Assembly (NCBI RefSeq): GCF_030812255.1
Contig: NZ_JAUSSH010000001.1
Location: 248,001-312,000, forward strand
Length of the DNA: 64,000 nt
Source: Paeniglutamicibacter psychrophenolicus
GTDB lineage: Bacteria; Actinomycetota; Actinomycetes; Actinomycetales; Micrococcaceae
Direction: 5' to 3'
Made by a program: the position numbers and the translations under genes. Position 1 is the first letter of the stretch. Each line of letters begins with the position of its first letter. Positions 12,706 through 57,642 of the stretch are shown piece by piece. Under the pieces are notes generated by a model. That model ran no database searches. It was not told the DNA's origin and was given only the letters and a program-made list of their open reading frames with translations.

Positions 12706-13158
12706 TTAAACCTGGGCGCCGCGTCCACCGGTGTCCGGCGGCAGGTCACGGTTGGAGGTGCGGCCGGTCCCCGGTGCGATTTCGAGCATGAGGAACACGA
12801 AGACCAATTCGAGCGTGCCGAGGCCGAAGTAGATGGTTTGCAGGAACGAATACTCGAGGATGATCGCCAGTTCCACAAACACCCAAATGATCATCCCGAA
12901 TCCCGCAATGGCGGCCCATCGCATGGATGCGCGGCGGTGGGCCATCAGCGAGCCGGCCGCAACAACCTGGGTGCCGCCGACGACCACTCCCAAGATGATC
13001 CCGGGAACCAGGAAAGAGCCAAAGGGACTGCCCTGAAGGTATTCCAGGGGAACACCCGCGCCCTTGAAGACGATGGCCATTACAGCACCGGCAAAGGCGG
13101 ACACCGAGCCAAAGAGCAGGAGCACCAGGAGCGCGGTCCGTGTGGCGCCGCCGTTCAT
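12706..13158 (-). CDS. Four-helix membrane protein, unrecognised
   Basis: A 150-residue protein with four predicted transmembrane helices and a short polar C-terminal tail. No motif identifies a function. Its ATG (13158) overlaps the flavodoxin stop in an ATGA, so the two are translationally coupled. With the membrane protein at 13734-14225 it forms a three-gene unit (membrane protein, flavodoxin, membrane protein) under a DosR-like box. This suggests a role in a membrane redox or stress function, by context only. Confidence 0.65.
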   Translation of the reverse strand: MNGGATRTALLVLLLFGSVSAFAGAVMAIVFKGAGVPLEYLQGSPFGSFLVPGIILGVVVGGTQVVAAGSLMAHRRASMRWAAIAGFGMIIWVFVELAIILEYSFLQTIYFGLGTLELVFVFLMLEIAPGTGRTSNRDLPPDTGGRGAQV

Positions 13159-13697
13159 TCGCTGCCTCCCGGTGCGTCCGGAGGTGTCGTGCGCAAGCGC
13201 GCGCCCCATTCCTGCGCCCGTTGTTCTTCACCCGCGAGCAGATGCGTAGCCTTGTCAACAAGGAAGCTCTCGGGCGGGGCCGCCAGCTCGAATCCCGATT
13301 TCCGCAACAACCTCGATATGCCCTTGGACGCCCGGCCGGTCAGCAGGGGCGCCGCGTCGAAGCGTGTGTCGAAGGCTGCTGCCATGCCTCCCGCACGGGA
13401 AAAGGAAGCAAGCCATTCGCGGATTCCTTCCCCTGCCGCGTCCGGCTCCAGCAGCAAACCACCCGCGAGGTCGGATGCTGCAGTCCGGGCTGCGTTGCGG
13501 GTCGATTCCCGGCTCATGGCATGCACATGGGTGGGGCCACCCACGACGAGCAGATCGAGGTCCCCGGGGTCGATTGCTTCGGTGTTGGACACCGGTAGAA
13601 CGGGCACGTTTCCTGCCGGGTCGATGCCGCGCGCAATGGCTTCGGCGACATGCCGTGTGTTGCCGTACATGGACTCGTAAACAACGATTGCACGCAT
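13155..13697 (-). CDS. Flavodoxin-family protein
   Basis: A 180-residue protein starting RAIVVYESMYGNTRHVAEAI, the FMN phosphate-binding loop of flavodoxins (Y-E-S-x-Y-G-N-T). A second flavin-contact region, LVVGGPTHVHAMSR, is near residue 50. Flavodoxins bind FMN and carry low-potential electrons; this one also resembles protoporphyrinogen-oxidase/flavodoxin-like stress proteins. The ATG start at 13697 follows the ribosome binding site GGAGCGAAAG. It is coupled by a 4-bp overlap to the downstream membrane protein. Confidence 0.85.
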   Translation of the reverse strand: MRAIVVYESMYGNTRHVAEAIARGIDPAGNVPVLPVSNTEAIDPGDLDLLVVGGPTHVHAMSRESTRNAARTAASDLAGGLLLEPDAAGEGIREWLASFSRAGGMAAAFDTRFDAAPLLTGRASKGISRLLRKSGFELAAPPESFLVDKATHLLAGEEQRAQEWGARLRTTPPDAPGGSE

Positions 13698-13733
13698 CTT
13701 TCGCTCCTGATCGGTGTGTAAGGGATAAAGGGA

Positions 13734-14225
13734 CTATCTTTGGTTCCCGAGCCGTGGACCTGAGGCCACGGCGGTTCGCAGGAGAACAATGATCTCCACG
13801 ACCACACCGAGGACACATCCGGCGATGGCCACCACAATCAGCACCCGTGTCACCAGACCCCAGTCGATGCCGAGGCTGTCGAATTCGAATGGAAAGAGCC
13901 TCCACAACCGGGTTAGCACGGCCAACGCGAAGACGCTCGTGACGATGTCTCCCATGGCCTTGACCCAGGCGATGTCCAGGACCAGATTGATGAAGTTCAC
14001 CACTGCGCCGGCGATCAGTGCGGCCACCAACAAGCCGATGACCTGCTGGGTTTCCTCGGTGAGGAAACCCAATGCATGCCAGCCCGGCGAACCGGTGACA
14101 AGGAACACCAACACGACGTTCACCAGTACGGCGACAAGGTAGCCGCCCCTCCGGGCTCCACCGCGATTTCGATCCTTCGGCCCCCAGCTTGCCCGATTCC
14201 CCATGTCCTTGGCCATATGCACCAT
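13734..14225 (-). CDS. Four-helix membrane protein, first gene of flavodoxin operon
   Basis: A 163-residue protein with a basic, Gly/Arg-rich cytoplasmic N-terminus and about four transmembrane helices (residues about 29-45, 62-85, 90-108, 128-150). No enzymatic motif is seen. The start is the ATG at 14225, with ACGAGCACC just upstream; an in-frame ATG at 14216 is an alternative. A DosR-like box centred about 35 bp upstream suggests hypoxic control of this and the two following genes. Confidence 0.6.
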   Translation of the reverse strand: MVHMAKDMGNRASWGPKDRNRGGARRGGYLVAVLVNVVLVFLVTGSPGWHALGFLTEETQQVIGLLVAALIAGAVVNFINLVLDIAWVKAMGDIVTSVFALAVLTRLWRLFPFEFDSLGIDWGLVTRVLIVVAIAGCVLGVVVEIIVLLRTAVASGPRLGNQR

Positions 14226-14252
14226 GGTGCTCGTGAACCGCGGCCAACCATA

Positions 14253-14266
14253 GGGCCGAAGGTCAT
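14253..14266 (-). promoter_or_regulatory. DosR-like box
   Basis: On the minus strand it reads ATGACCTTCGGCCC. The right half GGCCC, with the CTTC centre, matches the mycobacterial DosR box variants well; the left half ATGAC differs at two positions from GGGAC. It is 28 bp upstream of the ATG of the flavodoxin operon, a position expected for an activator site. Function is inferred. Confidence 0.45.
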
Positions 14267-14342
14267 ATCAGGGCCCACTCATCGCGGGTACCAGCGGCGC
14301 AATCCCGGGTTGGCCTGACCCCGGTTGCCCCGGTAATGGTCC

Positions 14343-15890
14343 TCAGGACGCCGGGTTCTCCGTCCCGGGCGGGTGGGGCCGGGCAAGTGCCGGTTCGTCA
14401 GGTCCCTGGTCGAGCCGGAACGGCGGGTACTCGTCGCGGAACAGCGCGGCGTATGTCACCACACGGAAGATCCAGCGGTTGATGCCGACCACGAGGTTGA
14501 AGAGTCCCACGGGATATCGTGCCGTGAACAGCAACGCAAAGCCGGCAATGACGACCAACGCGACCACGAGTGAAATGCCGTTGCGTTCGGTGTCGGTGTC
14601 CCAGCCATAATTCCAGCCGTGCCTCCATCCGGAATTCCCAGTAGCGACCGGTGCGCTGATTGCACCAAGAATCAGATAGTGCGGAATCGCCAACAGCCAC
14701 CACTTGACGAGGACCAGCCCTCGGTTGAGCCGCTCAGGATAATCGATGTCGAAGTCGGCAGGGTAGTCGGTCCTGGCCAAGGTGAAGGGCGGGTATCGGT
14801 CTGTGCCGAGGGCCGAATACGAATAGAAACCCACGCGCCAGGTCCAGCGCAGCACCCCGACGTTGAAGCCAAACAGCGCATGTGGGTACCTGCCGGTGAA
14901 GAGAATCGCGAAGCCCGCAATCAATGTCGTGACGGCGAAGGCGAGCCAGAGGAACGCCAGCACCACGTAATGCGGGATGGCGAGTAGCCACTTCACCAGC
15001 CACAACCCCCGTGAGGGGTTCCCGTCAAGCCGACCGTAAAGGTGCGCGGGGAAGACCCCGCCCGTCGCGTGCACCTGGCCCCCTTGCGCGGCCGCCGGGG
15101 AAGGTATTGCGGGGAAGGACTCAGCACGCGCCGTGTTGCGGATGGCTGGGTTGCGGCGTCCCAAGACGACAGCGCCGATGATTAGCATCGGCACACCAAT
15201 GGCCAGCAGCACCGCGCCCACGATGATCAGGGTTGAGGCGATCGGAGCGAGCAGATCGCTGCGCACTCCGACAGCAAGGTCTGTCGTGACGCCGGGCGTA
15301 CCATCTGCATTCATCACCACAACGCCCCATTGCCCCGGAGAAAGGTTCCACTGGATCTCCTGCAAGCCCGGGCCCGTGGCCGACGCCGCCCAGAATTGCT
15401 GTTTCGCCGGTGGCGCAGGAGTCCGGGTGCCGGCGGAATCCAGGTACTCGACGGCGAAGGGGTGGTAGCTGACGCTGCCTATTTCGGCATGCTTGACTCC
15501 CGCGAGGTAGCGGTCGATGTCGGCCATGGGAGCAATTCCGATGAAGATATTGGAATCGGTCGATTTGGCACCCAATCGAAGGGTTGCAAGGTCGAAGGGC
15601 AAGTTCCGCGCTGCCGGATCAGTTCCGGACACCTCCCCGGGTGGGGAAGTCAATGCGTATCCCGGGGTGCTGAAGGTCTCCGTCGGCACCGAGAAGTACC
15701 CTTCGCTGTCACGGAACTGGTTGGCGCTGGCGGCGAAGATGCCCCCGGTCAGCACCGCGCCGCCCACAAGGGTAAAGAGGATTCCGAATGCAAGGAGCAG
15801 CGCACCCTGCGTTCCGTTGCCCCGGGGCGACGGCTGTCTGGACGCAGGCCCCGGGTTCCCTGCGGGTGGGTTTCCTGGTTCCTGTGTCAT
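14343..15890 (-). CDS. DUF4389 membrane protein (two tandem DUF4389 units)
   Basis: A 515-residue membrane protein. There is a Pro/Gly-rich N-terminus, then one helix (about 28-52) and an extracytoplasmic segment of about 170 residues ending in a second helix (about 215-240). Two DUF4389 repeats follow from about residue 275, each with R-G-L-x-L-V-K-W-x-L-A-I-P-H-Y, A-I-L-F-T-G-R-Y-P and an F-N-V-G-V-x-R-W motif. The family is common in actinobacterial stress islands but its function is not established. A DosR-like palindrome lies 37 bp upstream. Confidence 0.8.
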   Translation of the reverse strand: MTQEPGNPPAGNPGPASRQPSPRGNGTQGALLLAFGILFTLVGGAVLTGGIFAASANQFRDSEGYFSVPTETFSTPGYALTSPPGEVSGTDPAARNLPFDLATLRLGAKSTDSNIFIGIAPMADIDRYLAGVKHAEIGSVSYHPFAVEYLDSAGTRTPAPPAKQQFWAASATGPGLQEIQWNLSPGQWGVVVMNADGTPGVTTDLAVGVRSDLLAPIASTLIIVGAVLLAIGVPMLIIGAVVLGRRNPAIRNTARAESFPAIPSPAAAQGGQVHATGGVFPAHLYGRLDGNPSRGLWLVKWLLAIPHYVVLAFLWLAFAVTTLIAGFAILFTGRYPHALFGFNVGVLRWTWRVGFYSYSALGTDRYPPFTLARTDYPADFDIDYPERLNRGLVLVKWWLLAIPHYLILGAISAPVATGNSGWRHGWNYGWDTDTERNGISLVVALVVIAGFALLFTARYPVGLFNLVVGINRWIFRVVTYAALFRDEYPPFRLDQGPDEPALARPHPPGTENPAS

Positions 15891-15926
15891 GGGACCCAGC
15901 GTGCCGGGTGGCAGCCTTGGGCAGAA

Positions 15927-15940
15927 GGGACCAAGGTCCC
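15927..15940. promoter_or_regulatory. DosR-like box, perfect palindrome
   Basis: GGGACCAAGGTCCC has perfectly complementary six-base arms around a two-base centre and is the closest match in the window to the DosR consensus (GGGAC-N4-GTCCC). It lies 37 bp upstream of the DUF4389 start. The rest of the 478-bp gap 15891-16368 contains no gene that I can support. Confidence 0.6.
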
Positions 15941-16368
15941 AAAGGGCAAGGTGGGATTCTCCAGGCGGTTGCGGCCTTGGATTGGGAATATGTCCGGATG
16001 CCGGCGACGTAACGGAAATGCTTCAAGACGAGGTGAACTCTAGCGCCCGTCCCGCGCCGCCGCACAGGACTTGGGCCGTTGGGGGCAGCTACGGCGTGGA
16101 TCCGTCGAACCGCAGCAAGATCGCGGCACGGCTGGGTGCATCGTCCTTCGGGTGTGCCGTCGGTCGTGACCGGTGCAACCACTAACCCAGACCACAAGCG
16201 GCCTGTTGCCTCCCTCTCCGCAGGGCCGCGATTTCGTGGACTTCTGCATTCCCGTGACCGGAACCTCGGTGCCTGTGCCGGAAATAGGCCATTGCCTCTG
16301 GTCGCCCGGTGTGGGGAAGGAATCGGCCTTGGGAACCGGGCGGCAAAGTGTGGGGTGTTTCCCTGGCC

Positions 16369-17260: not shown

Positions 17261-17332
17261 CTGGATGGAAGCGTTGCTCCAGCCCCGATGACGGCGCTCG
17301 CCGAACCTGCTCTTCCACCATGCCGCCGGCCC

Positions 17333-17346
17333 GTGACTTAGGGCAC
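17333..17346 (+). promoter_or_regulatory. DosR-like box upstream of pta
   Basis: GTGACTTAGGGCAC differs at two positions from GGGACTTAGGGCCC. A closely related site with the same TTAG centre occurs at 44377. It lies about 130 bp before the chosen pta start. Weaker than the other sites. Confidence 0.35.
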
Positions 17347-17473
17347 TGGCCGATGATCGGGTTTGCGGTCATCCTGAGAGGGAAGGACAGTTTCGGACAC
17401 GCAGCGATTGCCACTGCGTTCGGCACTGGCCCGCGAAATCCGGAATCAGCTTCTGAAGGCGAGAGTATTCATC

Positions 17474-19618
17474 TTGGGCAGGGGAATTTACGTTTGTGCT
17501 TCGGCTCCGGGATCAGGCAAGAACCTGGTGTCACTGGGCCTGGTTGATGCCCTGCACCGTCATGCCGACACGATCGGCTTTTTCAGGCCGATTGTTGGCG
17601 GCACGGATCCGAAGCTGGACCCGATGCTCCTGACGCTGCGAGAACTATACAACCTCGATCCATCGGTGTGCCGGGGCGGCATGACTCTCGGCAAGGCCAG
17701 GGGGTTGCTGGCGGCGGGGCGCAGCGAGGAAATCGAAGCCGAAACCATCGCCCACTACAGCGAAATGGCCAAGCAATGCGATGTCCTGGTGGTCGAGGGG
17801 TCCGACCTCCGCGGCCGCGATGCGGCGGTGGAGTTCGGCCTCAACGCGCGTCTGGCCAACAGCCTGGGGCTGCCGGTCCTGGCTGTTGTCGGTGCCGAGG
17901 GCCTGGGCCCGGAAGAGACCGCGGACGCCGTCGACGTGGCGCGCAAGGAGCTTGCGGCGGCGCACTGTTCGCTCCTGGCCGTGCTGGTCAATCGGGCCGA
18001 AGCCGACGGGGCAGCCCGGACGAAGGCGGCAATCCGGCCCGGAAGAAGCGGCTGGCCCGTGTATGTGATCCCCGAGATCCCGGAGATAGCCCGGCCGACG
18101 ATGGGCGACGTTGCCGCCGCCTTGGAGTTGCGGCACGTGGCAGGCAGCACCGAGCTGGACCGCGATGTCCACTCGGTGAAGGTGGCCGCCATGACGGTGG
18201 GAACCTTCCTGCAGGTCCTGGGCGCGGGCGATCTGGTGATCGTGCCAGGGGACCGGGTCGATGTGATGGTTGCCAGCTTGGCCTCGGCGTTCTCCCTCGA
18301 GTTCCCCGTCCCCAGCGGGATGATCCTGAGCGACGGGCTTGCTCCGGGACCCGAGGTGCTCAAGTTCCTGGCCCGGGCGCCGTTCCCCGTCCTTGCCAGC
18401 GAGCAGGACACGTATTCCGCTGCCCACCTGGTGGCGGCGGTCAGAAGCGAAATCCATGCCGGCCAAAAACGCAAGGTGGCCGCCGCACTCGGCGCATGGG
18501 CGCGCAACGTCGACGAGACCGAGATGCTTGCACGCCTGGCCCTTCCGCGCCCCGCCACCACCACGCCGCTGCGCTTCTTGCATGAACTCGTCGAACGCGC
18601 CAGAAGCCCGCGACGACGGATTGTCCTACCGGAGGGGCAAGAACTCCGGGTGCTTCGGGCCGCCGAGATCCTGCACCGCAGGGACGTCTGCGATCTGACG
18701 ATCCTGGGCAACGAGGCCGACATCCGGGTGCTGGCCGCCAGCGCCGGCATTGGCCTGGACGGACTGGCCCTGGTTGATCCGGCGACCTCGGAACTGGGGG
18801 AACGGTTCGCCCGTGAATACCAGCGTTTGCGTGCACACCGTGGGATGGTGCTGTCCCGTGCCCGGGAGATCATGTTGGAGGGGGCCTACTTCGGCACCAT
18901 GATGGTTCAGCTGGGTTTCGCGGACGGCATGGTCTCCGGTGCAGCGCACACCACCGCCGACACCATTCGTCCGGCCCTGGAATTCGTCAAGGCGCGGGAG
19001 GGTGCCGGGACGGTGTCATCGGTGTTCTTCATGCTTTTTCCCGACCGCGTCCTGGTATACGGGGATTGCGCCGTGAATCCCGAACCGGATGCCCGGCAGC
19101 TGGCCGACATCGCCTTGGCCTCAGCCGATACCGCAGCCGCATTCGGCGTGGAACCCCGGGTCGCGATGCTCTCCTATGCCACGGGGGCTTCAAGCACGGG
19201 AAGCTCCGTGGACAAGGTGCGCCGGGCCACCGAACTGGTCAGGGCCGCCCGTCCGGATCTGGCCGTCGAGGGGCCAATCCAGTACGACGCCGCCGTGGAT
19301 GCCTCCATTGCGGCGCTCAAGCTGCCTGCGTCGGCAGTGGCCGGACAGGCCACCGTATTCGTGTTCCCCGACCTGAACACCGGCAACAACACCTACAAGG
19401 CCGTCGAGCAGTCCTCCGGCGCCGTTGCGGTGGGTCCGATCCTGCAGGGCTTGCGCCGGCCCATCAACGACCTGTCCCGGGGCTCAACGGTCGAGGACAT
19501 CGTCAACACCGTTGCCATCACGGCGGTACAGGCCCAGTCCACGCCCAAGGAGGGCGACGTGCACGGCAGTGGAGCGGGTCCCCGCGGGAACCAACACCGG
19601 CAGCCACCTCCCCGGTGA
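17474..19618 (+). CDS. pta: Phosphate acetyltransferase, long form
   Basis: Interconverts acetyl-CoA and acetyl phosphate. There are three parts: an N-terminal BioD-like P-loop domain (ASAPGSGKN; the canonical GKT reads GKN), a central DRTGG-type domain (about 195-330), and the C-terminal PTA domain from about residue 370 (RIVLPEGQELRVLRAAEIL, then DGMVSGAAHTTADTIRPAL and FPDLNTGNNTYKAVEQSSGA). About 714 residues, normal for long Pta. The start is uncertain: the frame is open from TTG 17408, but family N-termini begin just before IYVCASAP, which favours TTG 17474. With acetate kinase (55491) and phosphoketolase (49574) it completes an acetyl-phosphate energy module. Confidence 0.9.
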   Translation: MGRGIYVCASAPGSGKNLVSLGLVDALHRHADTIGFFRPIVGGTDPKLDPMLLTLRELYNLDPSVCRGGMTLGKARGLLAAGRSEEIEAETIAHYSEMAKQCDVLVVEGSDLRGRDAAVEFGLNARLANSLGLPVLAVVGAEGLGPEETADAVDVARKELAAAHCSLLAVLVNRAEADGAARTKAAIRPGRSGWPVYVIPEIPEIARPTMGDVAAALELRHVAGSTELDRDVHSVKVAAMTVGTFLQVLGAGDLVIVPGDRVDVMVASLASAFSLEFPVPSGMILSDGLAPGPEVLKFLARAPFPVLASEQDTYSAAHLVAAVRSEIHAGQKRKVAAALGAWARNVDETEMLARLALPRPATTTPLRFLHELVERARSPRRRIVLPEGQELRVLRAAEILHRRDVCDLTILGNEADIRVLAASAGIGLDGLALVDPATSELGERFAREYQRLRAHRGMVLSRAREIMLEGAYFGTMMVQLGFADGMVSGAAHTTADTIRPALEFVKAREGAGTVSSVFFMLFPDRVLVYGDCAVNPEPDARQLADIALASADTAAAFGVEPRVAMLSYATGASSTGSSVDKVRRATELVRAARPDLAVEGPIQYDAAVDASIAALKLPASAVAGQATVFVFPDLNTGNNTYKAVEQSSGAVAVGPILQGLRRPINDLSRGSTVEDIVNTVAITAVQAQSTPKEGDVHGSGAGPRGNQHRQPPPR

Positions 19619-20569: not shown

Positions 20570-20791
20570 TCAGGCCTGCAATACCAGGGCAAGCTTCGGA
20601 CACAGCTTGACCGCATCCCTGGCGGCCTGTGCCTCGTCGGGCCCGATAGTCGCGTTCGTACCATCACCGTTCCTGGGGTGCCTGACCACGGGGTATCCCC
20701 AGTCATCGCGCCCCAGCACCGCGGGCAACAGCTCGGTGCAAAGCCCCCGACCGTCACACCTTGTCCAGTCGATGTGGAGTTTCTTGTTCAT
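20570..20791 (-). CDS. Single-cluster ferredoxin ([3Fe-4S] type)
   Basis: A 73-residue ferredoxin. The Cys pattern is C-x5-C (C-D-G-R-G-L-C) near residue 12 and a C-terminal L-C-P-K. With three visible Cys in cluster positions it fits the monocluster [3Fe-4S]/[4Fe-4S] ferredoxins that pass single electrons. Its ATG overlaps the NuoF-like gene stop in an ATGA, so the two are coupled. It is the last gene of the ApbE, ferric-reductase-like, NuoF-like and ferredoxin operon. Confidence 0.9.
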   Translation of the reverse strand: MNKKLHIDWTRCDGRGLCTELLPAVLGRDDWGYPVVRHPRNGDGTNATIGPDEAQAARDAVKLCPKLALVLQA

Positions 20792-22041
20792 GCTGCCCTT
20801 CCGCCCATCCGTGTGCAGTTCCCGGTTAGATGTGCCCCGACATCCTCGGAGAATATTTCCAAGGCACTTTGGATCAATTGCAGGGTCCCGTCCGGGTGGT
20901 GGCAGGCCCCCCTGCGGGCGACGAGAGTGCCCAGCCGTTCCAGCTCGCCGACAAGTTTCGGATTGCGGTCACCGCCGGCAATCGCAGCCAGGACCTTGGC
21001 CATCGCCGGCAGGCCGAACACGCACGGACCGCATTGCCTGGCGGATTGCCCGGCCAGGTACTCGACGATCCAGGCAGTTGCCTCCAATCCGCACTGCCCG
21101 GTGGAAAGCACATGCAGCACACCGGCGCCGGGACGGACGGTTTGGCCTGCCGGGCCCGACGGCGTCAACCGGTAGTCCAGCGGCTTCACCCAGCGCCCGT
21201 GGTAGCCGCCAACCAACACCGCCTGCACACCCGAGAGGTCAATGCCGGCATGGGCCAGGACAAACCCGAGGCCCTCATCGCCTGCGACTTCCAGGACCTG
21301 GTCGGCACCCCGGCCGGATACGGAAACCAGCCGCGTGCCGGGGTCCCGGTCCGATCCCGCAGAACGAAACCATTGGGCACCGTAGCGGGCGATGAGCGCC
21401 ACATGTGAAAGGGTCTCCACGTTCAACACGAGTGTCGGCCGACCCTTGAGCCCCGAGTCGCTGAGCCGGCGGCGGTTGTCCAGCGGCAGTGCGTTGCCGC
21501 CGCCGATAGCGTTGACCACCGCGCTGGCCTGGCCGGAGATGAAGGTTTCAGGTGCCTCGATCACCTGGATGCGGCGGGCGTCGCGGCGCTCGGCGATGGC
21601 TGCTTCCACGGCGGGCATGGCCACGGCCGTGGTGTAGACGTAGAGCGACGAGGCGGACACGGACCGGGCAGCCACCAGAAGCCCGTCCAGCACCAGATGC
21701 GGCGCATGGAGCAGGAGCGTCTTGTCCTTGAAGCTCAGCGGTTCCCCCTCGGCGCCGTTGGCGATGACCACGGGCCTGCTCCGCAGCAACGCCCCGTCAC
21801 GGCCCTGCCCCGTTGCGGAGACCTTGCGCCACGAGGCGAAGGCAGCCCCGCCCCTACCGGTCAGGCCGGATTGTTCCAGTACGCCGATGAAGGTCGCGTC
21901 GATGCAGTGCTCCGGAAGCGGGCCGTAGGCCCGCTCGTGGTCGGCCAACGTTGCGTTGGACCCGGCGGCGAAAAGCCGGTTGTTCCCCGAGGGGCCGAGG
22001 TGCTGGGACGTCACGGGCATCTGCGAGGTCATGTGCGTCAT
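20788..22041 (-). CDS. NuoF-like NADH/FMN/iron-sulfur oxidoreductase subunit
   Basis: A 417-residue protein related to the 51-kDa NADH-binding subunit of complex I. It carries a Gly-rich NADH/FMN region (L-T-G-R-G-G-A-A-F, then NGAEGEPLSFKDKTLLL), a SLBB-like middle part, and a C-terminal [4Fe-4S] region with R-Q-C-G-P-C-V-F-G and A-C-H-H-P-D-G. It lacks other complex I subunits and is shorter than NuoF. It is coupled upstream to a heme-binding membrane protein and downstream to a ferredoxin (ATGA overlaps both sides), suggesting an NAD(P)H to ferredoxin/heme membrane electron path. The start ATG 22041 follows AAAGGAG. Confidence 0.85.
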   Translation of the reverse strand: MTHMTSQMPVTSQHLGPSGNNRLFAAGSNATLADHERAYGPLPEHCIDATFIGVLEQSGLTGRGGAAFASWRKVSATGQGRDGALLRSRPVVIANGAEGEPLSFKDKTLLLHAPHLVLDGLLVAARSVSASSLYVYTTAVAMPAVEAAIAERRDARRIQVIEAPETFISGQASAVVNAIGGGNALPLDNRRRLSDSGLKGRPTLVLNVETLSHVALIARYGAQWFRSAGSDRDPGTRLVSVSGRGADQVLEVAGDEGLGFVLAHAGIDLSGVQAVLVGGYHGRWVKPLDYRLTPSGPAGQTVRPGAGVLHVLSTGQCGLEATAWIVEYLAGQSARQCGPCVFGLPAMAKVLAAIAGGDRNPKLVGELERLGTLVARRGACHHPDGTLQLIQSALEIFSEDVGAHLTGNCTRMGGRAA

Positions 22042-23529: not shown

Positions 23530-23530
23530 G

Positions 23531-29330: not shown

Positions 29331-29392
29331 GAGTTCTTCCTTTCCGCCCCCGGGATACCACCGAGCTTGGCGGTCCGGCGTCCCCGGGGCTA

Positions 29393-29406
29393 GGGCACAA
29401 GGTCCT
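29393..29406 (-). promoter_or_regulatory. DosR-like box between adh and PEP synthase
   Basis: On the minus strand it reads AGGACCTTGTGCCC, identical over all 14 bases to the site at 39299. It is 63 bp before the dehydrogenase GTG and 143 bp before the PEP synthase ATG, so it could serve either. Confidence 0.55.
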
Positions 29407-29548
29407 ACGCGGGGCCCGGGAAACCGGTGAGAGCCCGATCGCCACGCCCGGCAGGCGGTCCAGTGCCTTAATCCCCTAGCCGACACCCGCGTCCGCGGAG
29501 TTGACTGTGAAGAGGAATGTGGATTCGGGAGCCAACAAGGAAGAAATA

Positions 29549-39312: not shown

Positions 39313-39452
39313 CATGCACCGCCATGGCAGGATGTCCAGCATTGGAACCGGGCAATCGCCGGATCGCATGGCTTCTCCCGCGGTCTGCGGTGCCCCGGCA
39401 GTCGCCCTTGTGGCGAAGACCGGCCAAAGACAATCGAGGAATGGTGGTTTCG

Positions 39453-44311: not shown

Positions 44312-46564
<2,253 letters not shown>

Positions 46565-48594: not shown

Positions 48595-49464
48595 ATGAGC
48601 GCGCAGGAATTGCATGTGGACGGTGGAGCTGTCCGTTTCACGCACCCCGGGAAGGTTCTCTATCCGGAAACCGGTACCACCAAGCTGGATGTGGCCATGT
48701 ACTACATGCAAGTAGCCCCGGTAATGATCCCATGGGCCAGGGACCGGCCCGCAACCCGTAAACGATGGATTGACGGAGTGGGAACCGGCACAGATCCCGG
48801 CAAGAGCTTCTTCCAGAAGAATCTTGATGCCTCCACGCCCGAGTGGGTACTGCGCCAAAGAATGCAGCACAAGGATCATGTGAATATCTATCCGATGGTC
48901 AACGATGCCCGGACATTGGTTTGGCTTGCCCAGACTGCGACCCTCGAGATCCACGCGCCGCAATGGCGATTTTCCCCGGATGGCACTCCGCAGCACCCCG
49001 ACCGCATGGTGCTGGATCTGGACCCGGGAGAAGGTGCAGGCTTGCCCGAGTGCGCCGCCGTGGCCCTCCTTGTCAAGGAATCGCTTGCCCAAATGGGCGT
49101 CGTCTCCCTCCCTGTCACCAGCGGACGCAAGGGCTTGCACGTGTATGCCGAGCTTGACGGAAAGAGGACGTCGGACGAGGTCGCACGCCTGGCACATGAA
49201 CTGGCCATGTCCTTGGAAAGTGAATATCCGGAGATGGTGGTCAGCCGCATGGACAAGGAATTGCGTCGGGGAAAGGTGCTGGTCGACTGGAGCCAAAACT
49301 GGCCGGGAAAGACGACGGTTGTTCCATACTCCTTGCGAGGCTCGGCGCTCCCGACCGTGGCTGCACCGCGGCGTTGGGAGGAGATCGACGCGGTGGATCT
49401 GGCCCAGCTGGACTATCGTGAGGTGCTGGCACGGATCGAAGCAGGAATCGTGCCGGGACTATGA
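48595..49464 (+). CDS. Stand-alone LigD polymerase domain (NHEJ primase-polymerase)
   Basis: A 289-residue archaeo-eukaryotic-primase-type polymerase as found in LigD of bacterial non-homologous end joining. It has the catalytic metal pair D-L-D-P-G near residue 140, S-G-R-K-G-L-H-V-Y near 182, and V-L-V-D-W-S-Q-N near 228. Length fits the isolated PolDom with no ligase or nuclease part. The ATG 48595 is taken as start; TTG 48574 is an alternative. In mycobacteria similar PolDom proteins (PrimC/Prim-PolC) do gap repair in resting cells. No ku is visible in the window. Confidence 0.9.
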   Translation: MSAQELHVDGGAVRFTHPGKVLYPETGTTKLDVAMYYMQVAPVMIPWARDRPATRKRWIDGVGTGTDPGKSFFQKNLDASTPEWVLRQRMQHKDHVNIYPMVNDARTLVWLAQTATLEIHAPQWRFSPDGTPQHPDRMVLDLDPGEGAGLPECAAVALLVKESLAQMGVVSLPVTSGRKGLHVYAELDGKRTSDEVARLAHELAMSLESEYPEMVVSRMDKELRRGKVLVDWSQNWPGKTTVVPYSLRGSALPTVAAPRRWEEIDAVDLAQLDYREVLARIEAGIVPGL

Positions 49465-49573: not shown

Positions 49574-52067
49574 TCAGCCCCGAGGCGGGGACCAGACCCA
49601 GTCGCGGATTTCGGGCATGTCTTCCAAATGCCGGCGAATGTAGGCTTCGTGTTTCACGAGCATGGCCCGGCAGTGCTCCACCAATTCGAGGGCGCCATCG
49701 AACTGGCCGTCGACCCGGTTCAACGCCTCGAGGGCAAGGTGGTAGCGGCTCATGCGGTTGAGGACCACCATGTCGAACGGCGTCGTCGTAGTTCCTTGTT
49801 CGTTGTAGCCGCGGACGTGGAAACGGCCCGGATTCGAGCGTCCGTGCAGCAGTTGGTGTATGGCTCGGGCGTACCCATGCCATGCCACGACAACATCGCG
49901 CTCAGCGGTGAACAGGCCTTCGAAACCGGCGTCGGTGAGCCCATGGGGATGGACGGCATGGGGCGGAAGCACGAACACATCCATCACATTGACCACCCGG
50001 ACCCGCAGCCCGGGTACATAGCGCTGCAACAACCATGCCGCGGCGAGCGTCTCCTCGGTAGGGACATCGCCGGCGCAGGCAAGGACGATGTCCGGCTCGG
50101 CCTGCGGCAACTGCCCGTCGGCAGCCGTGACGGATGATTCGGTGCCGGTCCTTGTGCTCCGGCCGCTGATCGTGTTTCCGGGCGAATCCTCGTTGCCCGC
50201 CCACCGCCAGATCGAGGCACCGGCTGCGGCGTGTCGGCGGGCCTCCTCCAGATCGAGGTATTGGGGGTGGGGTTGCTTGTCCACGACGACCAGGTTCAGG
50301 TGGCCATTGCTGCGTAGGACGTGTTCGGCCGTGGCCAACAAGGTGTTGGAGTCCGGGGGAAGATAGACCCGGACCACCGAGCCGGACAGGGACAGCACGG
50401 TGTCGATCAGGCCCGGTCCCTGGTGGCTGAAGCCATTGTGGTCGTTGCGCCAACACGTCGATGTGAGCAGGATGTTCAGGCTGGGCACGGGGTGCCGCCA
50501 GGGTAGTTCACGGGCGTGCTGGAGCCATTTGGCGTGTTGGACGGTCATGGAGGCGCTCACCATGGCAAACGCTTCATAGGTGGCAAAGAATCCATACCGT
50601 CCGGTGAGGACGTAGCCTTCGAGCCAGCCCTGACAGAGGTGCTCCGAAAGGACCTCCATGACGCGGCCGTTCCGGGACAAATGGTCATCGCCGTCCAACG
50701 ACGGAGTCATCAGGCACCTGTCGGTGACCTCGAAGACGGCACCAAGTCGATTGCTGTTGGTTTCATCCGGGCTGAACAGCCTGAACCGGGGATCCTGGGC
50801 CGTATCGGCATAGATGTCGCGAAACATCTCACCCAACGGCCTGGTGGTTTCGTGTTTGGTGGAACCCGGAGCACCCACCTTGAGGGCATAGTCTTCCAGC
50901 GGCCGCAGCGGCAGCGGGGCCGACGAACCGCCGTTGGCCCAGTGATTGGCGCCCATGCGCAAGTGCCCCTGGGGGGGCGAGTGCCGCAAGTTCCGGAACC
51001 AGCCGTCCGTCCTCATCAAAGAGCGTTTCCGGTTTGTAGGAGCGCAACCAGGATTCCAGCTGAGCCAAGTGGGCGGGATTCTCCCGGACCGAGCCCAACG
51101 GAACCTGGTGGGCACGGAACGTGCCCTCGATCGGGACTCCATCCACGAAGGCCGGGCCCGACCAGCCCTTTGGGGTGCGCATGACGATGGCAGGCCACGG
51201 GGCAGGCCCTGTGTTTCCATGACTGCGGGCCCGCTCCTGGATCTGGATGATCCGGGTGTGGGAGTCGGCGAGGGCCCGGGCAAGGCTCGTATGTACAAGG
51301 GCAGGGTCGTCACCGGTGACCATGACCGGTTCCCAGCCGTGAGCGCGCAACAGCGCCATGACCTGGCTGTCGGAACGCCGGCCCAGGATCGTGGGACCGG
51401 AAATCTTGTGACCGTTGAGGTGCAGAATCGGCAGGACGGCCCCATCCCGGTCAGGGTTCAGGAACGAAGGAGCCTTCCATGCTCCTTCCAATGGGCCCGT
51501 TTCGGCTTCCCCGTCGCCGACCACGCAGGCGACTATGAGGTCGGGGTTGTCCATTGCGGCACCGGTTGCATGTGCCAGCGAGTAGCCCAACTCCCCGCCT
51601 TCGTGGATGGAACCGGGTGTGGCCGGCCCTACATGGCTGGGGATGCCGCCCGGAGTGGAAAACTGACGGACCAGCCGTTGCAGCCCCGGAAGATCCCGGC
51701 CGACCTCGGGGTAGATCTCGGAATAGGTTCCTTCCAGATACAGGTTGGCTACCACTGCGGGTCCGCCGTGTCCGGGACCGGTCATGAACAGGACCTGGGC
51801 GCCGGTCATGCGGATGAGCCGATTGAGATTCACATAGATCATGGACAATCCGGGACTCGTTCCCCAATGCCCCAGCAGTCGCGGCTTGATGTGTCCAGCG
51901 GCCAATGGAACGCGCAGCAACGCATTGTCCTGGAGGTAGATCTGGGCAACGGTCAGGTAATTTGCCGCATTCCAGTACCGGTTCAGGAGGTCGAGCTCTC
52001 CTGCATCCATGGCCGGGACCGGAGCCTGCACTGCCGGGGGATCGACGGGATTGAACCGATTCTTCAA
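49574..52067 (-). pseudogene. xfp: Phosphoketolase, frameshifted in a seven-base homopolymer
   Basis: Cleaves xylulose-5-P or fructose-6-P to acetyl phosphate. The TPP-binding half is complete ([25 protein letters not shown]) and the rest follows in another frame (N-H-W-A-N-G-G, T-S-T-C-W-R-N-D-H-N-G-F, S-C-terminal W-V-W-S-P). Reading frame is lost at G7 (50971-50977). Removing or adding a base restores a protein of normal length, about 830 residues. The TTG at 52067 with GGAG six bases upstream is the likely start; GTG 52151 is an alternative. Either a sequencing error or a recently broken or phase-variable gene. Confidence 0.85.
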
Positions 52068-52178
52068 GGACTGCTCCAAGTGGCCGTTGCCTGATCCGGA
52101 TTCACCCGACCGGTGCTTCGAATCGAGTGGCGGATGCTGCGGTGCTTCCACTGTTGCACGGATCCGGTAGGACGGTTA

Positions 52179-52192
52179 GGGACGTTGTACCC
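52179..52192 (+). promoter_or_regulatory. DosR-like box between phosphoketolase and usp
   Basis: GGGACGTTGTACCC matches GGGAC-N4-NNCCC with only one non-consensus base in the right half. It lies 112 bp before the phosphoketolase start and 121 bp before the usp start, serving divergent genes. Confidence 0.55.
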
Positions 52193-52312
52193 TGTTCGGC
52201 AGCGTCGCACAGGGCCAATGATTGATATCCGGGGACGGAGGGTCTCGGCGGTGGCCCCTGGCTCATGACATGTCGTTTGCCCCGTGCCGCGTTGACGACG
52301 AACGGTAGAACG

Positions 52313-52783
52313 ATGGAAGACATGGCCAGCATTGATCGTGCACACATCCTGGTGGGAGTAGATGGATCTGCCGGTTCCGTGGAAGCCCTCAAATGGGCAG
52401 CCAAGCTGGCTCCTTCCCTCGGGGCGGTAGTCGTTGCCGTCAACGTGTGGCATTTTGAAAACGCCTGGGGTGCCTATGCATCCCCGACCTGGAATCCGGA
52501 GACAGACGCGCAACAGGTGATGGACGATTCCCTGGCCGAGGCCTTCGGAAACAATATGCCTGAGGGCCTGTTTGCGCAGTGCTGCCAGGGCATGCCCGCG
52601 CGCATCCTGATTGAGCGAAGCGCTTCAGCCTGCATGCTGGTCGTCGGTTCGCGCGGTCATGGAGGATTCGCCGGCTTGTTGCTCGGATCCGTCAGCTCGG
52701 CGTGTGCGGAGCATGCAAAGTGTCCGGTGCTCGTGGTCCATTCACCGTCGCAACCACCAACGGAAGAATCGATCGGAACATGA
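52313..52783 (+). CDS. Universal stress protein, ATP-binding type
   Basis: A 156-residue UspA-type protein: A-H-I-L-V-G-V-D-G-S-A-G-S at the start and G-S-R-G-H-G-G-F-A-G-L-L-L-G-S near the end. ATGs at 52313 and 52322 are both possible. Its TGA overlaps the ATPase ATG (ATGA), so the two are coupled. Closely related to the Usp at 39453, which also sits by a P-type ATPase. Confidence 0.93.
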   Translation: MEDMASIDRAHILVGVDGSAGSVEALKWAAKLAPSLGAVVVAVNVWHFENAWGAYASPTWNPETDAQQVMDDSLAEAFGNNMPEGLFAQCCQGMPARILIERSASACMLVVGSRGHGGFAGLLLGSVSSACAEHAKCPVLVVHSPSQPPTEESIGT

Positions 52784-55494
52784 AGCCGGCGGGGGTCCAA
52801 GTAGCCGGACTGGGAATGGCGGCGAGCCCGGCACTTTCGATCCAAGACGCCGCCCGCCGGCCAACGGAACGTGTCCTGCTTGACCTGGACACGACCAAGG
52901 TGGGGCTGGGCGAGCCGGAAGCGGCACGACGGCTAGCCGTGGTGGGCCCCAACGCATTGCGAACCCATAAGGCACAGCCTGGGGCTGTGCTGTGGAGGCA
53001 ACTGCGTAGTCCGATCCTCAGGCTCCTATTGGCCACTGCCGGTTTATCCGTCTTTCTGGGGGACATCACCAACTCGGTGGTTATTGCCGTGATCTTGGCG
53101 GTCAGTATCGGATTGGGTTTCAGCAGCGAATTCCGGGCTGAACGAGCAGCGGAGGCACTTCACAAACGCGTGACCCACACCGTTGTGGCCCTGCGGGATG
53201 GCAAGGAGCGCCAACTCGACGTTGTGAGGTTGGTTCCCGGCGATGTCGTCCGGCTATTCTTGGGCGCTATCGTGCCTGCCGATATCAGGCTCTTGGTTTG
53301 TGACGAGATGTCGTGCGACGAAAGCATCCTCACGGGGGAATCACTGCCGGTTCGAAAGGATCCTGCCCCCGTTGGCGGTGAGGTTTCCGTTGGGGACATG
53401 AGTTCGTGCGCCTTCATGGGAACCGTCATCCAATTCGGCAGTTGCACCGGCGTGGTTGTGGCCACGGGCGGCCGCGCCGAGTTTGGCCAAATCGCCTTGG
53501 GTTTGGGGGAAGGACAGCCGCAAACCGAATTCCAGCAAGGCCTCAAGCGTTTCTCGTACCTTCTTCTGCAGGTGGCGGTCGTCCTGACTACGCTCATCTT
53601 CATCGCGAACCTGCTACTTGGCCGTCCGTTCATCGAGTCATTGCTGTTCTCCCTGGCGATTGCGGTGGGCATAACGCCCCAGCTGTTGCCCGCAGTGGTA
53701 AGCACCTGCCTAGCCACCGGGACCAGGATGTTGGCCAGACGGAATGTCCTGGTCAAACGTCTGGTCTGCATCGAAGACCTGGGAGACATGGACGTGCTGG
53801 TCACCGACAAGACCGGGACCCTGACCGAGGGTCGCATCGGCTTCTCGAAGGCACTGCCGGTGCTTCCGGACCTCTCCGTTGCGGAACTGTTCCTCCTGGG
53901 ACTGGTCTCCACGGAAATGGACTTTTCCGGTGCAGTGGTCTCCACGGAAGGACACAATCCCTTGGACACCGCGTTATGGAATGCTCCGGCAGCCCGTGAA
54001 TTTGTGCCGGGCAGCTGGAAGCGGGTGGACATTGTTCCCTTTGACCACCAACGCAGGATGTCCAGTGTTCTGGTGTCGGACCCGGCCGGGAACCAACGCA
54101 TCATCAGCAAGGGTGCCCCGGAAGATCTCATGCGCTTGTGTGTCGACGTCCCTCCCGATGCGCATTCCCGACTTGATGAACTATACGATCAGGGCGCGAG
54201 AGTGGTCGCTGTGGCTACCCGTGCCACCGTCAACCTGCCCGGACTTGGAATCGCCGACGAACGGGGATTGCGCCTGGCCGGATTCCTTACCTTCCAGGAC
54301 AACCCGAAGCCGAATGCCAAGGAGTCGCTCGTGGAGCTGGCAGCGTTGGGCATCACGGTGAAGATCGCCACGGGGGACAACGCCAGGGTGGCCGAGAAGG
54401 TGTGTCGGGAGCTGGGCCTGGTATTGGGCGGAACCCTGACCGGAATCCAGATGGACGCGATGACGGATGAGCATTTGATCGTTGCTGCCCGGGACGCAAA
54501 CATCTTTGCCAGGGTTTCCCCCGAACAGAAGGCAAGACTTATCAGGCTTCTGCGGCAAGACGGAAGCGCCGTCGGATTCCTGGGGGACGGCGTCAACGAC
54601 GCCCTCGGACTTCACAAGGCAGACGTAGGAATCTCTGTTGACAGCGCTACGGACGTTGCGAAGGACGCGGCCGACATTGTCCTGATGGACAAGGACCTGG
54701 GCGTTCTGGCCGAAGGAGTCCGAGACGGACGGAGGATCTTTGCCAACACCATGAAATATGTGTTGATGGGAACCTCAAGCAATTTCGGGAACATGTTCAG
54801 TGCGGCTACAGCCTCCGTTGTCTTGAGTTTCCTGCCCATGCTGCCGGGGCAAATCCTGCTCAACAACCTGCTCTATGACACCGGACAGCTTGCCATCCCC
54901 GGGGACAACGTGGACAAGGAACAGATGTTCGCACCCTCGCATTGGGACATCTCCCTTATTCGGCGCTTCATGCTCCTGTTCGGACCGATCAGTTCGCTCT
55001 TTGATTTTGCGACCTTCAGCCTGATGATCTTCGCAGTCCATGCGGCTCAAGGCGAGTTTCGGGCCGGTTGGTTCATTGAATCCATCGCGACGCAAACTCT
55101 GATCATTTTTGCGATCAGGACCCGCCGTGTGCCGTTCCTTCGCAGCCGACCCTCGATGGGACTGCTTGGGTCCGCCTTGGGAGTGGTCGCGCTGGGCATT
55201 TTTATCCCCTTGTCACCGGTGGCTGGCCTGCTGGGTTTTGATCCGTTGCCTGCCCCGTTCTTCCTGTCGCTGCTTGGGCTGACGGTGGTGTACCTCGTCT
55301 TGGTCGAAATTGCCAAGAGCTGGTTCTTTTCAAGATCGGAGCGCAGGGCACCGACAAGCCGCAAACGCGAAGGGCCCCACCATGTGCATCGGCGCGCTTC
55401 TCGGTTCAGCGTTGCCGGGCCCCTGGGGCCGGGAGGTGCGCGTGTGGCCAGCAAGCAAGTTGTCCGGTCCAGCGCGGACCACCGGGCGACCTAG
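52780..55494 (+). CDS. P-type ATPase, magnesium-transporter-like (P3B)
   Basis: A 904-residue pump. The sequence A-V-G-I-T-P-Q-L-L-P-A-V-V then V-K-R-L-V-C-I-E-D-L-G-D-M-D-V-L and the phosphorylation site T-D-K-T-G-T-L-T resembles MgtA/MgtB-type P3B ATPases. The actuator T-G-E-S-L-P and hinge G-D-G-V-N-D-A are present. The hinge is followed by L-G-L in place of the usual P-A-L, as in the Mg class. Translationally coupled to the upstream usp. Its stop overlaps the acetate kinase stop (convergent, 4 bp). Confidence 0.9.
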   Translation: MKPAGVQVAGLGMAASPALSIQDAARRPTERVLLDLDTTKVGLGEPEAARRLAVVGPNALRTHKAQPGAVLWRQLRSPILRLLLATAGLSVFLGDITNSVVIAVILAVSIGLGFSSEFRAERAAEALHKRVTHTVVALRDGKERQLDVVRLVPGDVVRLFLGAIVPADIRLLVCDEMSCDESILTGESLPVRKDPAPVGGEVSVGDMSSCAFMGTVIQFGSCTGVVVATGGRAEFGQIALGLGEGQPQTEFQQGLKRFSYLLLQVAVVLTTLIFIANLLLGRPFIESLLFSLAIAVGITPQLLPAVVSTCLATGTRMLARRNVLVKRLVCIEDLGDMDVLVTDKTGTLTEGRIGFSKALPVLPDLSVAELFLLGLVSTEMDFSGAVVSTEGHNPLDTALWNAPAAREFVPGSWKRVDIVPFDHQRRMSSVLVSDPAGNQRIISKGAPEDLMRLCVDVPPDAHSRLDELYDQGARVVAVATRATVNLPGLGIADERGLRLAGFLTFQDNPKPNAKESLVELAALGITVKIATGDNARVAEKVCRELGLVLGGTLTGIQMDAMTDEHLIVAARDANIFARVSPEQKARLIRLLRQDGSAVGFLGDGVNDALGLHKADVGISVDSATDVAKDAADIVLMDKDLGVLAEGVRDGRRIFANTMKYVLMGTSSNFGNMFSAATASVVLSFLPMLPGQILLNNLLYDTGQLAIPGDNVDKEQMFAPSHWDISLIRRFMLLFGPISSLFDFATFSLMIFAVHAAQGEFRAGWFIESIATQTLIIFAIRTRRVPFLRSRPSMGLLGSALGVVALGIFIPLSPVAGLLGFDPLPAPFFLSLLGLTVVYLVLVEIAKSWFFSRSERRAPTSRKREGPHHVHRRASRFSVAGPLGPGGARVASKQVVRSSADHRAT

Positions 55495-56639
55495 GGAATC
55501 GGCAACAGCGAGGCAGCGGCTGCTGCAATGACGGATGCTTCATCGGTGGGAACAACGAGAACCGGGAACGAAGAACATGCGGAGCTAATCAACCGCGTCC
55601 CCGTGGCACCTCCCTCGTTGGCGGAGCCGTCCGGCACGATTCCCAGCGGGGCCAGCTTGCCAAGAACCAACGAACGAAAAGGGGCCGAATTTTCCCCGAT
55701 GCCACCGGTAAAGACCAGCACCTTGGCTCCGCCGACAGCCACATGGTAGCCGCCAATGTATTTCGCGAGTCGGTAGGCGGCGATCTCCATGGCGAGGACG
55801 GCCCTGGCCTGGCCGGCTTGGGCCGCTTCCTCGACCGATCGCATGTCACTGGTGCCGCAAAGGGCCCGCAGGCCGGACTTCCGGTTGAGAAGTTCCTCGA
55901 TCGCATCGGCGTCGAGTCCCCGGCGTTGCAGGAACAAGATCACCGAGGGATCGAGGTCCCCGCACCGGGTTCCCATGACCAGGCCGTCCACGGGAGTGAA
56001 GCCCATGGACGTATCGATGCTCCGTCCTCCGCGAATGGCGGTTACGGAGGCGCCATTGCCCAAATGGGCGACGATGCCGTCGAGTGCTTCGGAAGGGATC
56101 CCGAGGAAGCTGGACGCTTGGTCGGTTACAAAGGCAAGGGAGATACCGTGAAAGCCATAGCGTCGGATCCCGTGGTCGAGGTAGAGGTCGTCCGGGATGG
56201 CAAAGCGCCAGGCAGATTCGGGCAGGGTCCGGTGGAACGCAGTGTCGAAGACGGCAACCTGAGGGATTCCGGGCCAGATGGTGGCAGCAGCACGGATTCC
56301 GGCAACGTCCTGGGGTATGTGCAACGGCGCCAAATGAGTCAGCTGTTCCAGTGCACCGATGACCTCGTCGGTAAGCACGGTGGGTTCCGTGAAGAGTTCG
56401 CCTCCATGGACCACCCGATGTCCGATCACATCGATTTTCTGCCCAGACAAGACCCGAATCACCTGCTGGTTGACTTGGCTGAGGGTCTGCCCATACTCGC
56501 TCGGAGCTTCGACCCCGGCAAGCCTCTCGACCTGGCCGGCGACCAGCACCGTGGACCGGTTCGCGGTGCTCGGTTCTTGTAACCGGTGCAGCTGGAACTT
56601 GATTGACGATGAGCCGGAATTCAGCACCAATATGAGCAC
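55491..56639 (-). CDS. ackA: Acetate kinase
   Basis: Transfers phosphate between acetyl phosphate and ADP to give acetate and ATP. A 382-residue protein with L-N-S-G-S-S-S-I-K-F (P-loop-like), H-R-V-V-H-G-G-E, S-M-G-F-T-P-V-D-G-L-V-M-G-T-R-C-G-D and V-F-T-G-G-I-G-E-N-S. The start is GTG 56639 behind AGGAGGACAACAAC. A DosR-like box is 53 bp upstream. With phosphoketolase and Pta it forms an ATP-yielding acetyl-phosphate module. Confidence 0.95.
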   Translation of the reverse strand: MLILVLNSGSSSIKFQLHRLQEPSTANRSTVLVAGQVERLAGVEAPSEYGQTLSQVNQQVIRVLSGQKIDVIGHRVVHGGELFTEPTVLTDEVIGALEQLTHLAPLHIPQDVAGIRAAATIWPGIPQVAVFDTAFHRTLPESAWRFAIPDDLYLDHGIRRYGFHGISLAFVTDQASSFLGIPSEALDGIVAHLGNGASVTAIRGGRSIDTSMGFTPVDGLVMGTRCGDLDPSVILFLQRRGLDADAIEELLNRKSGLRALCGTSDMRSVEEAAQAGQARAVLAMEIAAYRLAKYIGGYHVAVGGAKVLVFTGGIGENSAPFRSLVLGKLAPLGIVPDGSANEGGATGTRLISSACSSFPVLVVPTDEASVIAAAAASLLPIP

Positions 56640-56691
56640 GTTGTTGTCCTCCTATGACGAGGTCTCGCGACCCCAGGTGGTAATCGCAGGA

Positions 56692-56705
56692 GGGTCGTCT
56701 TACCC
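56692..56705 (+). promoter_or_regulatory. DosR-like box upstream of ackA
   Basis: GGGTCGTCTTACCC; the arms GGGTC and TACCC differ from consensus by one or two bases. 53 bp upstream of the acetate kinase GTG. It is the last of the series, close to the right edge of the island. Confidence 0.45.
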
Positions 56706-57642
56706 TTATCCAGATTTTCATTTTCGGCGATACCTCGATCATGGCACCGATCGGAATCGGCCGCCAGCATGGAGCCGGACACGATTCCCAAGACGAAGGC
56801 AGCGCGAACCGCGCTGCCTTCCAGAAACCCAGGGCGATGTTGCTGCCGAGCTCGTTCGGAAGCGTATACGCGTTGTTCCTGTTGTCGGGATAGAGGAAAC
56901 CCAGGCCGGGCTTTCCAGGATTCTGCATGCCAAAGGACCGGATGGTGGGGATCCTGTGGCCCAACGATGACAATGTGCTGGCTCAACCGACGGTGTGCCG
57001 CCGCAATCGATGGAGCCCAGGTGCAAGCTGAAGTGGTTGATCCTGTTACCGGTGCCAAAGGTTGGAGGATCCGGTCCGCACCCTGGGGTGGTGCCCGCGC
57101 GTCCTGATTCACGCAGTGGCATACGCGTGGAAGGTATGTCGTTCGATGGTTCCAAGGGTTTTTGGCGCTGCGGAATCATCGTGTGCAGGCCTAGGCGTGG
57201 GCTCACTGGTGTGCCTTCTCGGCAGGGTTGCCCAGCTTCGGCAAGCGCCACCAATCTGCGTCGGAGGACAATGGAGGCTAAACACCGGAGGGGTCACGAC
57301 GAAGCTTCTTGCCACGTGCAAGGTGGTGTCGGCACCGAAATTTCAGCGGCGGGCCCGTTCACGGCAATTCCCGGCACCAGAGCAAGCCTCGGCAGCACCG
57401 GGGCACCCAAATCCGTTCTTCGTCGGAAGTCCCGGTGGGTTCAGCAGCCCCGCCCGCCATGGCATAACGGGCCAGCCACGCGCGGCAACCAGTGCATGGC
57501 GCGTATACCGTTCGGGAGCAAGGTTCGCTTGGTGCCTGCCATGCCCCTGTGGACGGCGGAGCCTGCTTCATATGGCCCGTTGGCCTTGGACAAGCTTGCG
57601 CTCCTCCACTCCTCCACGCAGCCCGAGGCCCGGAAAGTCCTG
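56706..57642. other. Gene-poor boundary region, about 0.9 kb
   Basis: No believable gene. Short overlapping frames of both strands have odd composition and no ribosome binding site. One minus-strand segment (around 56760-56940) gives a protein-like stretch of about 50 residues and may be a gene remnant. No tRNA or attachment repeat was found by eye. It separates the stress island from the phosphonate cluster. Confidence 0.4.

Follow-up and report, generated by a model that had tools for sequence, protein, structure and literature searches.

Which regulator would control a cluster of dormancy genes that carries a sensor kinase and DosR-like boxes but no dosR? The question is raised by a 64,000-nucleotide stretch of Paeniglutamicibacter psychrophenolicus (positions 248001-312000 of contig NZ_JAUSSH010000001.1, here C1), which is referred to as the window and is numbered from its first nucleotide. 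The genome measures 4.57 Mb in 35 contigs. Most work on DosR has concerned its role as a dormancy switch in mycobacteria. Our analyses suggest that the window probably holds an accessory island in which a haem-type DosS kinase and dormancy, redox and acetate-fermentation genes lie under DosR boxes without dosR, and that the resident core DosR would control them. Comparisons within the genus used 15 genomes, namely the present one (G000) and 14 congeners.

Enrichment of DosR-like boxes in the island

The initial annotation had described ten palindromes resembling the mycobacterial DosR box. All ten were found where it had placed them, and each precedes at least one gene start by 26-139 bp. They are degenerate, a perfect GGGAC-N4-GTCCC occurring only at 15927. 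The boxes were scored with a 16-column palindromic matrix learned de novo from 64 upstream regions in loci of the congeners G002 and G008 and of six Arthrobacter records, a training set without any sequence of the present genome. The learned motif, AGGGNCCWWGGNCCCT, had a log-likelihood of 113, and the best unrelated motif among those listed had 55. With this matrix the ten boxes score 8.3-15.9 bits, and among all matches of the window they rank 1, 2, 3, 6, 7, 9, 13, 15, 19 and 20. A further box, at 29462, has rank 4; ranks 5, 8, 10, 11, 12, 14, 16 and 17 are intragenic and rank 18 is intergenic (57572).

Genes were predicted with a purpose-made codon-usage caller, on which the upstream-region sets rest. 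Before the upstream-region tests, a universal stress protein (Usp) gene at 52265-52783 was added by hand and the start of the next ATPase gene was shifted. The control consisted of 38 stretches of the same genome, with L014-L016 (stretches around a second dosS locus) excluded from the matrix counts. Boxes are denser in the island's upstream regions than in this 700 kb of control, which supports the view of the initial annotation that DosR-type boxes precede genes of the DosR-regulon type. At 8 bits or more, 10 of 20 island regions carry a match, against 20 of 349 control regions (Fisher p 2.9e-7). Matches of at least 11 bits number nine in the 44-kb island, where 1.3 were expected, and 21 in the control; seven of the nine are intergenic and two intragenic, and none lie in the window's remaining 20 kb. 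The area under the curve was 0.733 for the real matrix, a value that none of 100 column-permuted matrices matched (mean 0.55, largest 0.71). Retraining on Arthrobacter only (34 regions) gave the same motif and ranked the ten boxes 1-34; at 11 bits or more, the retrained matrix found matches in 5/20 island and 4/349 control upstream regions (p 3e-5).

Some results would fit GC-rich palindromes that were chosen by eye and have no regulatory role. Simple consensus counts, made with control stretches L012 and L015 excluded, differed little, if at all, between the island and the control (48 matches in the window at two mismatches or fewer), a Streptomyces OsdR matrix built from published sites did not separate the two, and training on G002 alone (20 regions) did not recover the motif. 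The separation of island from control by an independently trained matrix largely refutes chance, which we regard as very improbable indeed.

The regulator encoded elsewhere

No dosR was found in the window, and a genome-wide search for it at E 1e-45 gave a single copy, at C23:12542-13267 on another contig. The best match of its product among solved structures is DevR (207 bits), followed by VraR (118 bits), and DevR has the identical helix-turn-helix stretch AEKTVKNYVS. Judged by these matches, the gene is the DosR orthologue. It is a core gene, present in 15/15 genomes of the genus. Its promoter carries a box in all 15 genomes (9.6-14.8 bits, at positions -84 to -150 relative to the aligned start); that of the present genome is AGGGGCCAAAGGCCCG, at 13.1 bits. 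The genus dosR promoters were outside the training set, and the Arthrobacter dosR promoters were inside it. The box at the dosR promoter links the motif to DosR through autoregulation, as for osdR of Streptomyces coelicolor, which is preceded by a predicted OsdR site (PMC5069765).

Could the boxes instead serve another LuxR-type regulator or some other dyad-binding factor? The genome contains 32 GerE-domain matches, and the consensus differs at its inner positions from the mycobacterial one. Against this stand the conserved box at dosR's own promoter, the boxes found elsewhere in the genome at dosS/hsp20 and Usp genes, the identity of AEKTVKNYVS to DevR, and a resemblance to the published OsdR consensus, a 16-bp palindrome given as AGGGCCGATCGGCCCT (PMC5069765). 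A regulator other than DosR is therefore improbable, though less so than chance. That the boxes and the genes behind them form a DosR regulon is well supported by these comparisons.

Strong boxes outside the island lie beside dosR on C23, at the second dosS/hsp20 locus and, at C1:602 kb, in front of a Usp gene, so that the island is apparently part of the predicted regulon and not the whole of it. The second dosS locus (L015:7283-15310, C1:379-387 kb) encodes another haem-type DosS, a divergent hsp20, a Usp-like protein, a BON protein and an SDR gene. Its boxes (C1:382-387 kb) reach 15 bits, and G002 has the hsp20/dosS box, CGGGACGTTCGGCCCT, in identical form. The top control box (L101:2256, C1:602257; 18.1 bits) lies about 50 bp before the Usp gene, which is probably a core DosR target. 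A block at C9:138-148 kb (L148:13760-17853, L148:17872-19998 and L149:2-3526) holds consecutive P-type ATPase, ackA, HAD-GH65 and 807-residue phosphoketolase-like genes, and no box of at least 9 bits was found in it.

A haem-type sensor in the island and a kinase without the haem segment beside dosR

The island kinase (44882-46564, plus strand) was identified by Pfam and alignment as a DosS/DosT-like sensor kinase with a haem-type GAF-A domain (GFPKHHPPM) and HisKA_3. Its GAF-A matches that of DosT/DevS at E 5e-56, and its histidine-containing stretch, GFPxxHP, aligns with the same stretch of DosT and DosS. We take the histidine of this stretch, given the alignment, to be His149 of DosS. The haem ligand is His149 in Mycobacterium tuberculosis DosS and His147 in DosT (PMC4082495). 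The histidine is kept in both kinase copies of the present genome and in G002, G004 and G009, and these four of the 15 genomes are those with a haem-type GAF-A. The island kinase would thus be expected to bind haem. It is 100% identical to a kinase of Arthrobacter sp. AQ5-05.

Within the genus the haem-type DosS, encoded in this island and in similar loci, never lies beside dosR; the two are on different contigs, except in G002, where 0.8 Mb separates them. Among 20 named GAF-A loci from outside the genus, 17 hold dosR within about 3 kb, the loci having been found with the island kinase as query and forming no random sample. In all eight order-level relatives with a DosR match, a haem kinase is encoded on that contig at a distance of up to about 8 kb.

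The kinase that is convergent with dosR in the present genome has a GAF-A below the Pfam cut-off (16.1 vs 28.6 bits) and found no haem-GAF match among solved structures. GFPxxHPP occurs in the dosR-linked kinase of none of the 15 genomes (14 congener loci and the present one), and at 4/14 congener loci this kinase shows a remote GAF-A match, at 26-28%. A structure model that used the N-terminal 140 residues of 12 of the 15 dosR-linked kinases (mean predicted local distance difference test score 83.9) has a GAF fold, and the GAF-A of DosS is one of its best structural matches. In the alignment, the dosR-linked kinase has an internal gap that spans the entire histidine segment. As far as the alignments and the model can tell, the resident dosR-linked kinase is without the haem segment of the GAF domain in 15/15 genomes.

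Boundaries and origin of the island

The island lies between an EamA transporter gene (11430-12290, minus strand) and an ABC permease gene (57643-58461, minus strand), both of them conserved neighbours in the congeners; the permease gene adjoins a phosphonate-type binding protein gene. Where congeners have empty sites, their homology to the window stops at 12301 and starts again at 57642-57645, which places the 45-kb island at 12302-57641. Seven comparisons put the left edge at 12301, with G001 at 12289 and the divergent G012 at 12284; the right edge falls at 57642-57645 in 9/9. Both flank genes were found in 8 of the 14 congeners. In five of these (G002, G003, G007, G010 and G014) the flank matches are 62-75 bp apart, 46-61 bp of which do not align to the window. 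The spacing is 7.6 kb of other genes in G012, 13.4 kb in G008 and 45.1 kb in G004. Compared in this way, the stretch is an accessory insertion, and it was presumably gained by transfer.

The alternative is a vertically inherited DosR cluster, as in Streptomyces, that was lost in congeners and whose dosS-dosR linkage was broken by rearrangement. Clustering of the regulon is known in Streptomyces, and Arthrobacter wenxiniae and Arthrobacter silviterrae keep the order Usp, F420-oxidoreductase, ADH (alcohol dehydrogenase), PNPOx (pyridoxamine-oxidase-like protein), DosS, DosR; in A. wenxiniae an ABC1 protein and a LigD-like gene follow. The window has Usp, F420-oxidoreductase, ADH, DosS, ABC1 and LigD-like genes in this order, with 46 bp from DosS to the next gene and no DosR. 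G008 has its 13.4-kb version at the same site, which keeps a kinase without GAF-A, the ABC1 protein and ackA, and its left edge is continuous with that of the present genome, so that the insertion may be old. The 62-75 bp spacing in 5/8 congeners with both flank genes speaks against inheritance. Moreover, G003 and G007, whose sites are empty, are nearer than G008 (DosR 98% vs 92%), which makes clean repeated loss less simple than gain.

Phylogenetic reconstructions point the same way. The island DosS groups with Arthrobacter (100/100), apart from the DosS of G002 and G009, and the second DosS of the present genome groups with those two (100/100). The DosS tree had 23 rows, L063 and L076 having been dropped (<400 residues) and L079-L083 left out. 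In the DosR tree (29 rows, with 9/15 genus genomes included) the nine genus rows form one clade (98/94). In G004 the two ends of the island share an exact 18-bp direct repeat, which may count against vertical inheritance. The present genome has only the right copy, at 57642-57659 (plus strand), over the 3' end of the permease gene; it is the sole copy in the window, and the left edge resembles that of G008, not G004. No notable repeats were found at the island ends within the present genome. The G004 island is a mosaic relative to the present one, with 87% identity at the left end and 99.6% at the right. In G002 the island is absent from the site, and 21 called island genes are matched, rearranged, in a block at C1:1.90-1.95 Mb of G002. 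We consider vertical inheritance unlikely, and the accessory island is preferred.

Several observations weigh against the reading of an accessory island under DosR control. The island's GC content of 0.637 is at the 22nd percentile of 152 control pieces of 5 kb, and foreign base composition is therefore no useful argument for an island. No integrase or mobility gene was found by Pfam among the scanned island genes (all but the open reading frames, ORFs, at 23531-23878, 44351-44506, 50955-52094 on the plus strand, and 56741-56893). The island kinase gene is remote from dosR, and because of this distance the pairing of DosS with DosR is only a guess. Several boxes are weak (8-9.5 bits), and 10 of the 20 island upstream regions score below 8 bits, including those before ApbE-type genes and the OmpR-type pair. 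The 20 control regions that reach 8 bits count here as well, and the control matches probably include true regulon members. Exact GGGNCNWWNGNCCC occurs at 41 places genome-wide, two of them in the window, and the reversed control pattern is commoner, at 104. The window has no tRNA gene and hence no tRNA insertion site.

Boxes and gene content of the island

Gene types were assigned by Pfam matches, which support those named in the initial annotation: hsp20, Usp (four genes), HAD-GH65, P-type ATPase, PNPOx-like and fermentative genes. Two open-frame P-type ATPases, pta, ackA, pyruvate phosphate dikinase (PPDK) and phosphoketolase are also present. The leftmost box (14252-14267, 8.9 bits) lies 26 bp before a gene at 13734-14225 (minus strand), and the next (15926-15941, 14.8 bits) 35 bp before a DUF4389 gene (14343-15890, minus strand). 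The box at 17332-17347 (11.2 bits) precedes the phosphate acetyltransferase gene pta (17408-19618, plus strand) by 60 bp. Between a zinc alcohol dehydrogenase gene (28305-29330, minus strand) and the PPDK gene (29507-31960, plus strand) is a box at 29392-29407 (12.3 bits); the rank 4 box, which the initial annotation had missed, occupies 29462-29477 (13.3 bits), 29 bp before PPDK. A HAD-GH65 gene (31964-34888, minus strand) is followed by the PNPOx-like gene (34943-35413, minus strand) with its box at 35449-35464 (8.3 bits). The box at 36189-36204 (9.5 bits) separates hsp20 (35633-36100, minus strand) from a cation P-type ATPase gene (36278-39082, plus strand), and that at 39298-39313 (12.0 bits) precedes a Usp gene (39453-39968, plus strand). 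Another Usp gene is at 42079-42555 (minus strand). The highest-scoring box of the window (44376-44391, 15.9 bits) lies 90 bp from a second zinc alcohol dehydrogenase gene (43215-44285, minus strand) and 490 bp from dosS.

Further to the right, the box at 52178-52193 (15.6 bits) stands between phosphoketolase (49574-52151, minus strand) and the added Usp gene (52265-52783, plus strand). A second cation P-type ATPase gene, of uncertain start, was placed at 52720-55494 (plus strand; Pfam match on 52702-55494). The last box, at 56691-56706 (9.2 bits), precedes the acetate kinase gene ackA (55491-56639, minus strand). At about this position G008 has a different palindrome, as judged by eye; footprinting of the ackA promoter at 17 of 30 loci found nothing except the near-identical G004 and this palindrome of G008.

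The phosphoketolase has XFP_N in one frame and XFP plus XFP_C in another, which may reflect a sequencing error or a real break. A P-type ATPase at 40162-41672 (minus strand) is scattered across three short ORFs and looks degraded. At 20570-23878 (minus strand), a row of genes for ferredoxin and for NuoF-like, ferric-reductase-like and ApbE proteins, behind which lies an OmpR-type two-component pair, has no DosR box and is possibly a separate electron-transfer unit within the island. A LigD-type primase-polymerase gene lies at 48595-49464 (plus strand), and one is likewise found near the kinase in the Arthrobacter loci L060, L061 and L062.

Relation to known DosR systems

The initial annotation had regarded a compact DosR cluster as unusual. 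This is not supported: in S. coelicolor the genes under OsdR lie together in the interval SCO0167-SCO0219, for which synteny with the devR region of M. tuberculosis has been reported (PMC5069765). The OsdR/OsdK system and the present one share a DosR-type regulator, a 16-bp palindrome, a clustered regulon, and Usp, PPDK, ADH and PNPOx targets. They differ in that osdR and osdK lie inside the Streptomyces cluster; the present cluster is accessory, its box reads AGGGNCCWWGGNCCCT, and dosR is found on a different contig.

The present genome and the DevR(DosR)-DevS/DosT system of M. tuberculosis share a DevR orthologue and a kinase in which a haem-type GAF-A carries the same histidine motif. The hsp20, Usp, PNPOx-like and P-type ATPase genes also have counterparts among the DosR targets of that species. 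The inner positions of the box differ, and here phosphoketolase, ackA and pta lie in the island and the dosR-linked kinase is without the haem segment. The dosS-dosR loci of A. wenxiniae and A. silviterrae have the same gene order around DosS and the same boxes, but in them dosR adjoins dosS, and in the window it is absent. A horizontally acquired island of hypoxia-response genes is described for M. tuberculosis (PMC5720804): Moco-1 (moaA1-D1, MoaR1), which carries its own regulator MoaR1, whereas the present island carries a sensor kinase and no DosR.

Among the entries listed by literature searches, from which most subscription journals were absent, there was no published DosR regulon for Arthrobacter or Paeniglutamicibacter and no published haem-sensor-bearing DosR island apart from dosR. 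What appears to be new is the accessory sensor-plus-regulon island together with a haem-less resident kinase; clustering alone is not.

Proposed mechanism and implications

Low oxygen, nitric oxide or carbon monoxide would act on the island DosS, which would then phosphorylate the resident core DosR encoded on C23. DosR dimers would bind the 16-bp boxes, 11 in the island plus the dosR promoter and a few core sites; several of the island boxes lie between divergent genes (ADH/PPDK, hsp20/ATPase, ADH/dosS and phosphoketolase/Usp). Bound DosR may turn on Usp, Hsp20, PPDK, ADH, GH65 and the cation pumps, together with an acetate-forming energy route through phosphoketolase, Pta and AckA, and dosR itself and the few core sites would be switched on likewise. 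Phosphotransfer from DosS to DosR, DNA binding and hypoxic induction are all predictions from sequence. Our best reading is an acquired module of oxygen sensor and target genes that would be wired to a resident DosR bereft of its own oxygen sensor.

A more general proposal, which we hold tentatively and with some doubt, is that of a transferable sensor-plus-regulon module: the resident system of this genus would have lost oxygen sensing through loss of the haem segment from its linked kinase, and islands that dropped their own dosR would return a haem DosS and tens of kilobases of boxed genes. If it is true, oxygen-responsive dormancy would be gained and lost as a trait, on top of a core regulator that stays fixed. 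These close relatives form a natural series in which the same DosR occurs with or without a haem sensor and with or without a regulon island. The series opens the questions of what DosR does without an oxygen sensor, of how acquired genes are wired to a resident regulator, and of whether one transfer can confer oxygen-responsive dormancy in soil bacteria.

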